From assembly GCF_000787775.1 (NCBI RefSeq), contig NZ_BBPM01000049.1, forward strand, positions 1 to 41,649: DNA of 41,649 nt, written 5' to 3'. The number at the start of each line of letters is the position of its first letter. Position 1 is the first letter of the stretch. This document shows, piece after piece, positions 23,171 through 41,649 of this stretch. Under the pieces are notes generated by a model. The model was not told the DNA's origin. It was given only the letters and a program-made list of their open reading frames with translations, and searched no databases. The DNA comes from Streptacidiphilus carbonis (lineage in GTDB: Bacteria > Actinomycetota > Actinomycetes > Streptomycetales > Streptomycetaceae). A program made the position numbers and the translations under genes.

Positions 23171-23242
23171 GGCCGTGTGCCCGAGTGGTTCAGGGGACCG
23201 CCTGCAAAGCGGTTTACACCGGTTCGAATCCGGTCATGGCCT
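23171..23242 (+). tRNA. tRNA-Cys (GCA)
   Basis: The 72-base gene folds fully: acceptor GGCCGTG (23171-23177) with CATGGCC (23235-23241), anticodon stem ACCGC/GCGGT around loop CTGCAAA with anticodon GCA, and T arm ACCGG-TTCGAAT-CCGGT. The discriminator base is T (U73), the identity base for cysteine. CCA is not encoded. A strong hairpin follows at 23264. Confidence 0.97.
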
Positions 23243-38993: not shown

Positions 38994-39275
38994 TTACTTG
39001 CCCTTGGCGGCTTCCTTGAGCTTGGAGCCCGCGGAGACCTTGACGCTGTAGCCGGCGGCGATCTGGATCGGGTCGCCGGTCTGCGGGTTGCGCGCGGTGC
39101 GAGCGGCACGGTGGGTGCGCTCGAAGGTCAGGAAGCCGGGGATGGTGACCTTCTCGTCACCCTTGGCGACGACGTCGCCGACGACCTCGGCGAGCGCGGC
39201 CAGGACGGCGTCGGCGTCCTTGCGGGTCACCTCGGCGCGCTCGGAGAGGGCGGCCACCAGCTCACTGCGGTTCAT
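38994..39275 (-). CDS. hup: HU family DNA-binding protein
   Basis: The 93-residue nucleoid protein fits HU: MNRSELVAALSERAEVTRKD at the start, FGTF-like PGFLTFERTHRAARTARNPQTG with the DNA-binding arm, and KVSAGSKLKEAAKGK at the end. It lacks the long Lys/Ala-rich tail of the second streptomycete HU (HupS type), so it is the ordinary vegetative form. GGAG lies five bases before the ATG at 39275. It follows the malic enzyme gene on the same strand after a 375-base gap and ends at a strong hairpin. Confidence 0.96.
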   Translation of the reverse strand: MNRSELVAALSERAEVTRKDADAVLAALAEVVGDVVAKGDEKVTIPGFLTFERTHRAARTARNPQTGDPIQIAAGYSVKVSAGSKLKEAAKGK

Positions 39276-39650
39276 GTGTACTCCATTGTGGTCTGTCGCG
39301 TTGCGATCCTCGGCTGCCCCGGAGGACCGCCGCCTCGACTGCCGTACCGACAGGCGATGGGGGTTCCGCTGGACGCCCCAGGCTGCGCAAATCTCTTGCC
39401 TTGGGACGAATCCTGCCCCCACCACCGCCGGGAAAGCGAATCCGGCTTCAGCGGGCGTCACACGAACAGCGCCACGCTGTACGCGCAGTGACGGTTCGTT
39501 GACTCCCGCGGCACACTCTAGGGCGGCGTGCCACGTCAGGACGGCGCGCCACGCCGGTGCAGGGCCTACCGTACGCCCTGGGGCCAGATGGCCCCAAATG
39601 GCCCCCAAACGGCACTCGGCGACCCGTGCGGGTCAGAGCTGGACGGCGGG
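39276..39650. other. Intergenic region between malic enzyme and hup
   Basis: This 375-base region should hold the hup promoter. I see no -35/-10 pair I would defend. It contains short direct repeats (ggccccaaatggcccccaaa near 39590) and the first half of an 18-base tandem duplication at its malic-enzyme end. Confidence 0.6.
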
Positions 39651-39665
39651 TCAGAGCTGGACGGC
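39630..39665. repeat. 18-base tandem duplication spanning the malic enzyme stop
   Basis: gggtcagagctggacggc occurs twice in perfect tandem (39630-39647 and 39648-39665). On the minus strand it duplicates the last codons and the TGA, so a second in-frame TGA lies 18 bases after the first. Confidence 0.9.
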
Positions 39666-41102
39666 GGGGAAGGTCCCGGTGTCCGCGACCGGGTTGGTCG
39701 GCGCCTGCGCCGTGCCGGCCGCGTGCGCGGCGTCGCGGACGGCGGCCGCGACGGTCTTGGCGACGTCCGGGTGGAACACGCTGGGGACGATGTAGTTGGC
39801 GTTGCGCTCGTCCGCGCTGACGGTGGCTGCCAGGGCGCGGGCCGCGGCGATCATCATCTCGCTGTTGACGGTGCGGCTCTGGGCGTCCAGCAGGCCGCGG
39901 AAGACGCCCGGGAAGACCAGCACGTTGTTGATCTGGTTGGGGAAGTCGCTGCGGCCGGTGGCGACCACGGCGGCGGTCTGCCGGGCCACCGCCGGGTCGA
40001 CCTCGGGGTCCGGGTTGGCGAGCGCGAAGACGATGGCGTTGTCGGCCATGGCCGCGATGTCGTCGCCGTCCAGTACGTTGGGCGCGGAGACGCCGATGAA
40101 GACGTCGGCGCCGCGGACGGCGTCCTTCAGGCTGCCGGTGCGCCCGCTGCGGTTGGTGTTGTCGGCGATCCAGCGCAGCGAGTCGTTGAGGTCCTCGCGG
40201 CCGTTGTGGACCACGCCGTGCACATCGGCGACGGTGGCGTGCCGCACACCGGCGTCCAGCAGCAGCTTGAGAATGGCCGTACCGGCCGCGCCCGCACCGG
40301 ACATGACGACCCGTACGTCGCCCATCTCCTTGCCGACCACCTGCAGCGCGTTGGTGAGCGCGGCGAGCACCACGATGGCGGTGCCGTGCTGGTCGTCGTG
40401 GAAGACCGGGATGTCCAGCGCCTCGCGCAGCCGGGCCTCGATCTCGAAGCAGCGCGGCGCCGAGATGTCCTCCAGGTTGATGCCGGCGAAGCCGGGCGCG
40501 ATGGCCTTGACGATGGCGACGATCTCGTCGGTGTCCTGGGTGTCCAGGCAGAGCGGCCAGGCGTCGATGCCGGCGAAGCGCTTGAACAGGGCCGCCTTGC
40601 CCTCCATCACCGGCAGCGCGGCCTTGGGGCCGATGTTGCCGAGGCCGAGCACGGCGGAGCCGTCGGTGACCACGGCGACGCTGTTGCGCTTGATGGTGAG
40701 CCGGCGGGCGTCGTCGGGGTTCTCCGCGATGGCCATGCAGACCCGTGCCACGCCCGGCGTGTAGATCATGCTCAGGTCGTCGCGGTTGCGGATCGGCAGC
40801 TTGGAGGACATCTCGATCTTGCCGCCGAGGTGCATCAGGAAGGTGCGGTCGGAGACCTTGCCGATGCTCACGCCCTCGATGGTGCGGAGCTTGTCGACGA
40901 TCTCCTCCGCGTGCGCGACCGAGGCCGCGGCGATGGTGACGTCGATGCGCAGGGCCTCCAGCCCTGACGCGGTCACGTCGAGGCCGGTCACGGTCCCGCC
41001 ACAGGACTCCACGATGGTGGTGACCTGGCTCACAGCGTTGCCGCGGGCCGGGACCTCCATCCGCACCGTGATCGAGTTCGACACACTGGGCACCGTCGCC
41101 AT
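39651..41102 (-). CDS. NAD-dependent malic enzyme with N-terminal ACT domain
   Basis: The 483-residue enzyme converts malate to pyruvate and CO2. Residues 8-80 form an ACT-like regulatory domain (SITVRMEVPARGNAVSQVTT). The catalytic part includes IYTPGVARVC, KRNSVAVVTDGSAVLGLGNIGP, LEDISAPRCFEIE, FHDDQHGTAIV (metal-binding Asp residues) and the nucleotide-binding SGAGAAGTA. By length and layout it fits the NAD-type streptomycete enzyme. AAGGA lies six bases before the ATG at 41102. The gene is divergent from the candidate RNA at 41262 and ends in a tandem duplication. Confidence 0.94.
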   Translation of the reverse strand: MATVPSVSNSITVRMEVPARGNAVSQVTTIVESCGGTVTGLDVTASGLEALRIDVTIAAASVAHAEEIVDKLRTIEGVSIGKVSDRTFLMHLGGKIEMSSKLPIRNRDDLSMIYTPGVARVCMAIAENPDDARRLTIKRNSVAVVTDGSAVLGLGNIGPKAALPVMEGKAALFKRFAGIDAWPLCLDTQDTDEIVAIVKAIAPGFAGINLEDISAPRCFEIEARLREALDIPVFHDDQHGTAIVVLAALTNALQVVGKEMGDVRVVMSGAGAAGTAILKLLLDAGVRHATVADVHGVVHNGREDLNDSLRWIADNTNRSGRTGSLKDAVRGADVFIGVSAPNVLDGDDIAAMADNAIVFALANPDPEVDPAVARQTAAVVATGRSDFPNQINNVLVFPGVFRGLLDAQSRTVNSEMMIAAARALAATVSADERNANYIVPSVFHPDVAKTVAAAVRDAAHAAGTAQAPTNPVADTGTFPAVQL

Positions 41103-41264
41103 CGACGTTCCTTCTCTCGTACGCGCGCTCATTCAGACTTCTGACTTGGTGGTCTGATCGTCGCACCTACTACCGCGTAACTGGAAATGTTGTTCCACAC
41201 AGCGGAGCCGAAGAGAGTTTGTTGCGGGAAGGGAATGCGTTCCCGGGAGGCTTTGTTAGTCTGG
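41103..41264. promoter_or_regulatory. Divergent region between malic enzyme and the candidate RNA
   Basis: It holds the malic enzyme leader with TCAGA-ct-TCTGA (41133-41144), a gggaa-tgcg-ttccc inverted repeat (41231-41244), and TAGTCT (41257-41262), a possible -10 for the RNA. No good -35 was found for either direction. Confidence 0.35.
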
Positions 41265-41410
41265 GTGTACGGCACCGGCTCGATCCAAGCCCCCGGGCCC
41301 AACCTTAGTCGCTTCGAGCGACCACTTGCCGCGAGGCGAGCATGGCGGGTCGGTGCCGTACATACGTCAGAAAGGGCCTCCCAACGGTGAGTTGGGGGGC
41401 CCTTTCGCGG
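41265..41410 (+). ncRNA. Candidate structured small RNA with its own terminator
   Basis: A long helix pairs 41265-41282 with 41346-41363 (18 pairs, four G-U, 12 of them in an unbroken Watson-Crick run). Inside are a six-pair hairpin (41308-41313 with 41317-41322) and a six-pair hairpin CTTGCC/GGCGAG (41325-41330 with 41335-41340) capped by GCGA, a GNRA tetraloop only in the plus sense. A C-rich stretch (41290-41304) stays single. The terminator at 41370-41406 follows at once. No protein frame explains the region. I recall a small RNA named scr2952 from S. coelicolor at this locus, which needs checking. Confidence 0.65.
41370..41406. terminator. Strong terminator between the candidate RNA and the helicase gene
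   Basis: gaaagggcctcccaac (41370-41385) pairs with gttggggggccctttc (41391-41406), nearly perfect, with loop ggtga. It can serve the RNA on the plus strand and the helicase gene (stop at 41438) on the minus strand. Confidence 0.88.
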
Positions 41411-41437
41411 AGTTGGGAGTCCCTTTCGCGTTCCTGA

Positions 41438-41649
41438 CTACTCGTGCAGCAGCGCCGGGACGCCCCCGGCGTCCGGCAGGTCCAGCGGTCCGGAGAGCAC
41501 CGTGAGCCGCTGGGTGGCCCGGGTCAGCGCCACGTAGAGGACCCGCAGCCCGGCCTCGGACTCGCCGGCGATGCCGGACGGATCGGCGACCACGGTCGCG
41601 TCGTACTCCAGTCCCTTGGCCTCCAGGCTGCCCAGCGCGACCGCCCGCC
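41438..41649 (-). CDS. UvrD/HelD-like superfamily 1 helicase (C-terminal fragment)
   Basis: The last 70 codons lie in the window. They read SLEAKGLEYDATVV (motif V region) and LYVALTRATQRLTVL (motif VI), the C-terminal hallmarks of UvrD/Rep/HelD helicases, and end LPALLHE-like at a TAG (41438-41440). The motor domain is beyond the edge. HelD-type proteins either unwind DNA or remove stalled RNA polymerase; the fragment cannot tell which. Its 3' end meets the candidate RNA terminator. Confidence 0.88.
   Translation of the reverse strand, partial: RAVALGSLEAKGLEYDATVVADPSGIAGESEAGLRVLYVALTRATQRLTVLSGPLDLPDAGGVPALLHE

Follow-up and report, generated by a model that had tools for sequence, protein, structure and literature searches.

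A widespread structured non-coding RNA with SigR/SigH-type promoter boxes in Actinomycetes, described from a locus of Streptacidiphilus carbonis

The window analysed here, a 41,649-nucleotide stretch of contig NZ_BBPM01000049.1 of Streptacidiphilus carbonis, carries a malic enzyme gene and a UvrD-like helicase gene, both on the minus strand. Between them lies an element (41257-41410, plus strand) that an earlier note, made from the letters alone, had described as a multi-branched structured RNA facing a convergent gene. Both points hold. The plus strand of 41257-41410 folds at -90.9 kcal/mol (z = -7.2), with none of 200 dinucleotide shuffles as stable, and the helicase does run towards it. The RNA body without its terminator (41265-41364) gives -55.7 and z = -5.6; the minus strand of the element also folds (z -4.9), although more weakly than the plus strand. 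A covariance-model match covers 41266-41368 (74.6 bits). The features of the locus are:

39651-41132, minus: malic enzyme gene (Pfam malic and Malic_M), divergent from the RNA
41231-41236, plus: GGGAAT, candidate -35 box of an ECF promoter of the SigR/SigH type (sequence; published consensus; enriched at homologous positions)
41255-41257, plus: GTT, candidate -10 box, spaced 18 nt from GGGAAT (sequence; enrichment)
41265-41364, plus: predicted body of the structured RNA (type I), terminator excluded (fold; covariance-model match)
41265-41282, plus: 5' strand of P1 (fold; covariation)
41290-41301, plus: near-invariant strand CCCCSGGNYYCA, in the window CCCCCGGGCCCA (column counts; invariant columns)
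41308-41322, plus: P2 hairpin GYCGCUNCGAGCGRC, the module swapped in type II (fold; covariation; type II comparison)
41325-41340, plus: P3 hairpin CUUGCC-GCGA-GGCGAG with a GNGA tetraloop (GCGA, a GNRA loop in the plus sense) (fold; covariation)
41346-41363, plus: 3' strand of P1 (fold; covariation)
41370-41406, plus: terminator-like hairpin (fold; stems also at Streptomycetaceae loci)
From 41438, minus: C-terminus of a UvrD-like helicase (Pfam), convergent and downstream of the RNA

We take SCO2951 of S. coelicolor to be the malic enzyme. Since SCO2952 of that species is described as a class II HelD (PMC8655204), the helicase of the window is presumably HelD as well. Beside the malic enzyme gene, a frame at 38994-39608 (minus) has an end that, by eye, resembles the nucleoid protein HU.

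P1 comprises 18 pairs (41265-41282 with 41346-41363), the number that had been proposed for the closing helix, together with an inner CCA/UGG step, and it encloses the two inner hairpins, P2 and P3, the latter with the expected GNRA loop. In the window's own predicted ensemble P3 prevails, with a probability of 0.73. The C-rich strand that the earlier note had called free is present but only partly free, since folding predicts one more hairpin (GCC/GGC), a weak one, within it. The terminator that was said to follow immediately is likewise accepted in part: a 16-bp hairpin (41370-41406, plus) does stand 3' of the RNA body, but its T-run is short, and a consensus scanner applied to 41150-41460 called neither a terminator nor a sigma-70 promoter. 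As the note had stated, no protein frame explains the element. A small protein of 67 amino acids (41187-41390, plus) was considered and rejected, because it has no Pfam match and 2-base indels among relatives break the frame.

Compensatory changes among the homologues support one fold beyond both shuffled and slid controls. In an alignment that was not fitted to the covariance model (A1, 74 rows), the pairing fraction is 93.4% of cells, against 28-47% for slid structures, and 163 changes affect both sides of a pair. A larger alignment (A2, 101 rows) was fitted to the model and is thereby biased towards it, but the unfitted A1 agrees with it. In A2 the paired cells make up 94.3%, while sliding the structure lowers this to 31-43%, and 299 cells are changed on both sides against 90.7 when shuffled. 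The covariation check that the earlier note had proposed was thus passed strongly, all 12 modelled P1 pairs changing on both sides in A2. One P2 pair is CG in 55 rows and UA in 46, and the closing pair of P3 is CG in 74, UA in 10, UG in 8 and something else in 9 (A2, 101 rows for each). The strand CCCC-S-GG-N-YY-C-A and the loops, unlike P1, hardly vary. Because G-U pairs outnumber A-C pairs (GU+UG 109 vs AC+CA 19 in A1), the RNA is assigned to the plus strand.

The core of the fold is ambiguous in predicted ensembles, the probability of P3 being above 0.5 in 58 and below 0.3 in 34 of the 101 sequences. A pairing of CCCC with GGCG competes with it: in the ensembles the expected number of its pairs comes to three in 16 of the 101, that of P3 to at least two in 56, and neither level is attained in 29. 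The alternative pairing shows no covariation of its own. The step directly flanking CCCC and GGCG does covary in type I, with 160 of 223 sequences paired at its first position against 37% expected (GC 87, AU 51 and CG 18; 52 are an unpaired CA) and 165 of 223 at its second against 60% expected; the third position has no excess. The window has the five-C form and belongs to the 52 with CA, the flanking step being unpaired in the window itself.

By BLAST with the 154-base query, the element is present in all 14 genomes of the genus and in 296 of 297 Streptomycetaceae genomes, the sole exception being a 5.2-Mb genome that is 93% complete; in a number of genomes from other genera, query bases 17-99 are identical. 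At class level, BLAST gave 161 matches at E<=0.1, many of them short chance matches, and found relatives in other families; 54 loci were examined and one (L135) was not a homologue. A sample of named genomes was obtained as matches to a degenerate DNA pattern (at least 120 stretches). Cellulomonas, Brevibacterium, Arthrobacter, Nocardia, Mycolicibacterium, Gordonia, Microbacterium, Nocardioides, Kribbella, Geodermatophilus and Jiangella are among the genera of the matches listed. A covariance model (R1) built from 74 sequences, with matches counted at E<=0.001, recognises 190 of 296 class genomes, 172 of the 267 of good quality, and 68 of 115 genera; under these strict filters, the other 106 class genomes have no match. 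In a draw from the phylum, 21 of 246 genomes matched R1, 18 of them in the class; the remaining three, weak matches of 24-29 bits with broken or missing pairs, were taken as chance. The RNA family is therefore widespread in the class Actinomycetes, and we regard it as practically certain that it is a conserved non-coding RNA family.

Some genomes give several model matches. Three model matches each were found in G371 (L348-L350), G364 and G539, and G490 has two type I copies in tandem, ~180 nt apart (L117 1502-1551 and 1684-1733); a single model match comes from the genome to which the window belongs. Copies also occur on three plasmid records, all from Rhodococcus (63.8, 57.6 and 35.2 bits). 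On pRZP2 of Rhodococcus sp. ZPP the copy (L354 3987-4093) is flanked by mihF and a gene of the Lsr2 family, and the others are on pRHL3 of R. jostii (L353) and pRB98 of R. oxybenzonivorans (L355, the weaker at 35.2 bits); the PLSDB gene tables, which are incomplete, list no gene beneath the plasmid copies. A phage RNA was considered and rejected, as a phage collection gave zero matches at E<=1e-5.

Upstream of the RNA body, GGGAAT (41231-41236) is followed after 18 nucleotides by GTT (41255-41257), all on the plus strand, which is the pattern of a SigR/SigH thiol-stress promoter. The SigR consensus is given as GGAAT-N18-19-GTT (PMC9205884), with a SigR/SigH-type form GGAAT-N18-GTT (PMC2375139) and a similar one in PMC3489674. 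Homologous loci were counted with GGAA[T/C]-N16-20-GTT ending at the expected place, which is looser than GGAAT-N18-19-GTT; control windows were drawn from the same loci, and this count left 73 of 343 loci unplaced. The pattern occurs at 48 of 57 distinct Streptomycetaceae loci (3/1653 control windows, 0.2%), at 33 of 50 class-sample loci (2/1461) and at 38 of the 120 named-genome matches listed (4/3247); it occurs in 0.2-0.6% of shuffles. Judged from their letters, SigR/SigH-type promoter boxes are thus shown in several lineages, and control by SigR/SigH in Streptomycetaceae seems to us probable. The start of an ECF promoter is expected 7-9 nt after GTT. For the window, this would place it at 41264-41266, inside the interval of 41262-41269 that the earlier note had named.

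The box is missing at 82 of the 120 named-genome matches listed. SigR is present in nearly all genomes of the class sample, yet 17 of its 50 loci lack the box. Among the names listed, the loci without it are largely from Micrococcales and Nocardioidaceae and show, by eye, a TANNNT-like -10. Boxes of the GGAAC type may be read by other ECF factors. Of 54 genomes checked, 51 have a hit above cut-off for the SigR-type sigma factor (TIGR02947, SigR/SigH), and for that reason its presence is uninformative about the type of promoter. By ChIP-seq in S. coelicolor, 75 of 105 known sRNAs are assigned to HrdB in PMC6344877, the text at hand making no mention of scr2952. Terminator-like stems follow the RNA at 29 of 56 Streptomycetaceae loci (35/1082 control windows), at 19 of 50 class-sample loci (54/979) and, among the matches listed, at 12 of 118 named-genome loci (114/2176, 5.2%).

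Low-score matches of the model led to the discovery of a second form, type II, which has the same P1 arrangement with CCCCGGGCCUCA and CGCCGAGAGGCG, and a longer P2 with a conserved tip of its own. Its pattern was found at 26 places in 24 of 296 class genomes, and it is absent from the window's own genome; a reversed control pattern was found zero times in the genomes listed. GGAA[T/C]-N16-20-GTT stands at the expected place in 21 of 25 distinct type II copies, against 2 of 749 controls, and a looser promoter pattern in 24 of the 25. The type II loci (L318-L343), of which L325 (G043:C1:927021-927093) is an example, combine the long P2 hairpin with ECF-like promoter boxes, and G112 has two type II copies 3.5 kb apart. 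In four genomes (G312, G446 and G494 of f17 and G386 of f37), model matches have the type II length and fall on type II places, so the 190 genomes matched by R1 include some with type II only.

The genes around the RNA differ between lineages. Ten chosen neighbour proteins were searched for within 1500 nt of the 120 named-genome matches listed, at E<=1e-6. The commonest was a ~200-aa protein, which among these 120 lies upstream and codirectional at 68, downstream and convergent at 13, and upstream and divergent at 3. This actinobacterial protein was the upstream neighbour at L157, and its relatives occur, on either side, at 83 further named loci among the matches listed. It has no Pfam match and only NCBIfam matches far under their cut-offs, and a search of the window's own genome (made with no positive control) gave no match; as a partner gene it was rejected, its recurrence being taken as synteny of some orders. 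A DUF47-like protein is downstream and codirectional at 26 of the 120 matches listed and a Pit-like one at 24, a PstB-like protein is convergent at 11, and WhiB is upstream at 6 (WhiB is over its Pfam cut-off and DUF47 under its own; Pit and PstB were named by eye). In other lineages, where gene calls are crude, inspection by eye suggests kgd, thiL and unrelated genes as neighbours. A cis-riboswitch would keep a constant position upstream of the genes of one pathway; here the neighbours vary by lineage, and the gene downstream in the window is convergent. Because the surroundings change in this way, a riboswitch acting as a cis element is contradicted, and the RNA gene stands alone. The earlier note had likewise seen an RNA gene unattached to a protein gene, and the promoter boxes and terminator-like hairpin of its own agree with that. 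What the locus encodes is a ~100-nt structured plus-strand non-coding RNA (plus terminator), as a stand-alone gene with no fixed neighbour.

None of the families in Rfam 15 scores above threshold on this RNA or on the relatives scanned. In the window only a tRNA (23171-23242) reaches the gathering cut-off, and 41150-41500 gave, at E<=10, four sub-threshold matches, the best being RefA9 (35 of 49 bits), which lies at 41331-41403, mostly on the terminator. At eight homologous loci the only matches were a tRNA located elsewhere and, opposite that tRNA, one below threshold; seven type II or weak loci gave one sub-threshold match elsewhere. The earlier note had mentioned a streptomycete small RNA from this locus, and scr2952 fits that description. 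According to PMC8388888, Vockenhuber et al. (2011) confirmed eleven sRNAs in S. coelicolor, scr2952 being one; the eleven are in Rfam, and five of them including scr2952 are conserved in more than half of the tested Streptomyces. By its name scr2952 should adjoin SCO2952, the same kind of place as that of the RNA here, and to judge by the name it may lie exactly at this locus. Although it is said to have an Rfam entry, our RNA is matched by no family of Rfam 15, and so scr2952 is either absent from the Rfam copy used or located elsewhere. The description of scr2952 in the portions of text available to us mentions no class-wide spread, fold, promoter or type II, and '2952' is absent from the main texts of PMC3765725, PMC11678152, PMC11077062, PMC2422843, PMC9205884 and PMC2375139. 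More generally, a search of open-licence papers, supplements excluded, returned no account of a function or of a class-wide RNA family in the texts as retrieved.

Several known RNAs invite comparison. 6S RNA has the shape of a long hairpin with a large central bubble, and 6C RNA is an actinobacterial RNA with C-rich conserved hairpin loops. Like 6S and Ms1 (scr3559), the RNA described here is stand-alone and structured and has a probable link to growth or stress, and Ms1 too is wide in actinobacteria (PMC9130861); it differs in being a branched junction with no Rfam match to a 6S-type model. RIP-seq of the RNA polymerase and HrdB of S. coelicolor, from exponential and stationary cells that were not diamide-treated, names scr3559 and scr0792, and the RNA here is not named among the polymerase-bound RNAs in the text of PMC11077062 at hand. 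6C RNA, an Rfam family (PMC4046766), shares an actinobacterial host range and C-rich conserved parts with it, but there is no 6C match to our RNA. The tmRNA gene ssrA is named among SigR targets (PMC4921905) and is also placed under HrdB (PMC6344877); tmRNA is a structured RNA with a SigR link, but it is another, known molecule, and no tmRNA match was found here.

In the explanation that we favour, SigR would transcribe the RNA under thiol-oxidative or antibiotic stress, the freely covarying P1 would clamp the junction, and there the near-invariant CCCCSGGNYYCA, together with P3 and its GNGA cap, would form the site at which a protein or a small ligand binds. P2 would be an exchangeable module, short in type I and long in type II, and the RNA would act in trans, not through antisense pairing but as a regulator of the ribonucleoprotein (RNP) or decoy type. 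A free closing helix together with near-invariant loop and strand letters is the pattern of protein- or ligand-binding RNAs (RNPs, aptamers), while mRNA-pairing sRNAs seldom keep their letters across so wide a range. We suggest a binding site because the freely covarying P1 contrasts with a junction and loops conserved by letter. For the explanation as a whole, in which SigR drives an RNA that acts in trans and has a junction bound by a protein or ligand, we judge the chances to be even; that the junction acts by such binding in trans we would put just short of that.

The earlier note had suggested an antisense regulator whose C-rich loop pairs with G-rich ribosome sites. A base-pairing sRNA of this kind would anneal its C-rich strand to G-rich mRNA sites and use the helices as a stabilising scaffold. 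The strand is indeed C-rich and partly unpaired, and the gene is stand-alone with stress-type promoter boxes and, at many loci, a terminator-like hairpin. Against this, the letters of the strand are near-invariant across the class, inspection finds no CCUCC in CCCCSGGNYYCA, and in type II P2 is altered although the strand is retained. We consider a base-pairing sRNA unlikely, and, arguing from the strand letters, pairing with ribosome sites is unsupported; the interpretation offered in the earlier note is, overall, partly supported. A ligand-sensing RNA, its core toggling between P3 and the CCCC-GGCG pairing, might act in trans, or in cis in those lineages where a codirectional DUF47-like or Pit-like gene follows. 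The near-invariant junction, the competing pairings in predicted ensembles and the 26 DUF47-like genes downstream (of the 120 named-genome matches listed) are in keeping with it. However, neighbours at the remaining loci are convergent, unrelated or unnamed, P1 closes the fold and no expression platform is obvious, and the alternative pairing lacks covariation of its own, its expected pairs amounting to three in only 16 of 101 sequences, against 56 with at least two P3 pairs and 29 with neither; this too strikes us as rather improbable. An RNA made under stress to sequester RNA polymerase, as 6S or Ms1, would share the long closing helix, the stand-alone gene, the stress-type promoter and, with Ms1, the wide actinobacterial distribution. 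The branched junction in place of a long hairpin with a central bubble, the lack of an Rfam match here and in eight relatives, and the RNAs named in the RIP-seq study of cells without diamide (PMC11077062) make it very unlikely. Finally, a minus-strand 5' leader of the malic enzyme gene, which starts at 41132 with the element upstream of it and whose strand can also fold, is rejected as next to impossible in view of the excess of GU over AC pairs, the weaker minus-strand fold, the plus direction of the promoter boxes and the other genes that adjoin the element in the lineages examined outside the family.

Returning to a SigR-driven RNA with a binding junction, we would tentatively, and with more doubt than confidence, go one step further. 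It may be a class-wide RNP or aptamer RNA of the thiol-oxidative response, in which P1, the junction and P3 are the scaffold for one conserved partner and P2 is an exchangeable head, its standing being like that of 6S, Ms1 and tmRNA and its core possibly toggling between P3 and the CCCC-GGCG pairing.

The letters of the core persist from Streptomyces to Mycolicibacterium, Nocardia, Microbacterium and Nocardioides in an RNA that is absent from Rfam 15; being kept so widely, they indicate that the RNA must do something that hardly tolerates change. The promoter boxes would tie it to the SigR/SigH response in Streptomycetaceae and several other lineages, a response that in Streptomyces is linked to thiol reduction, tmRNA and antibiotic resistance (PMC4921905). 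This link makes a direct test feasible in Streptomyces, and the pair of types I and II provides a built-in comparison of scaffold and head.
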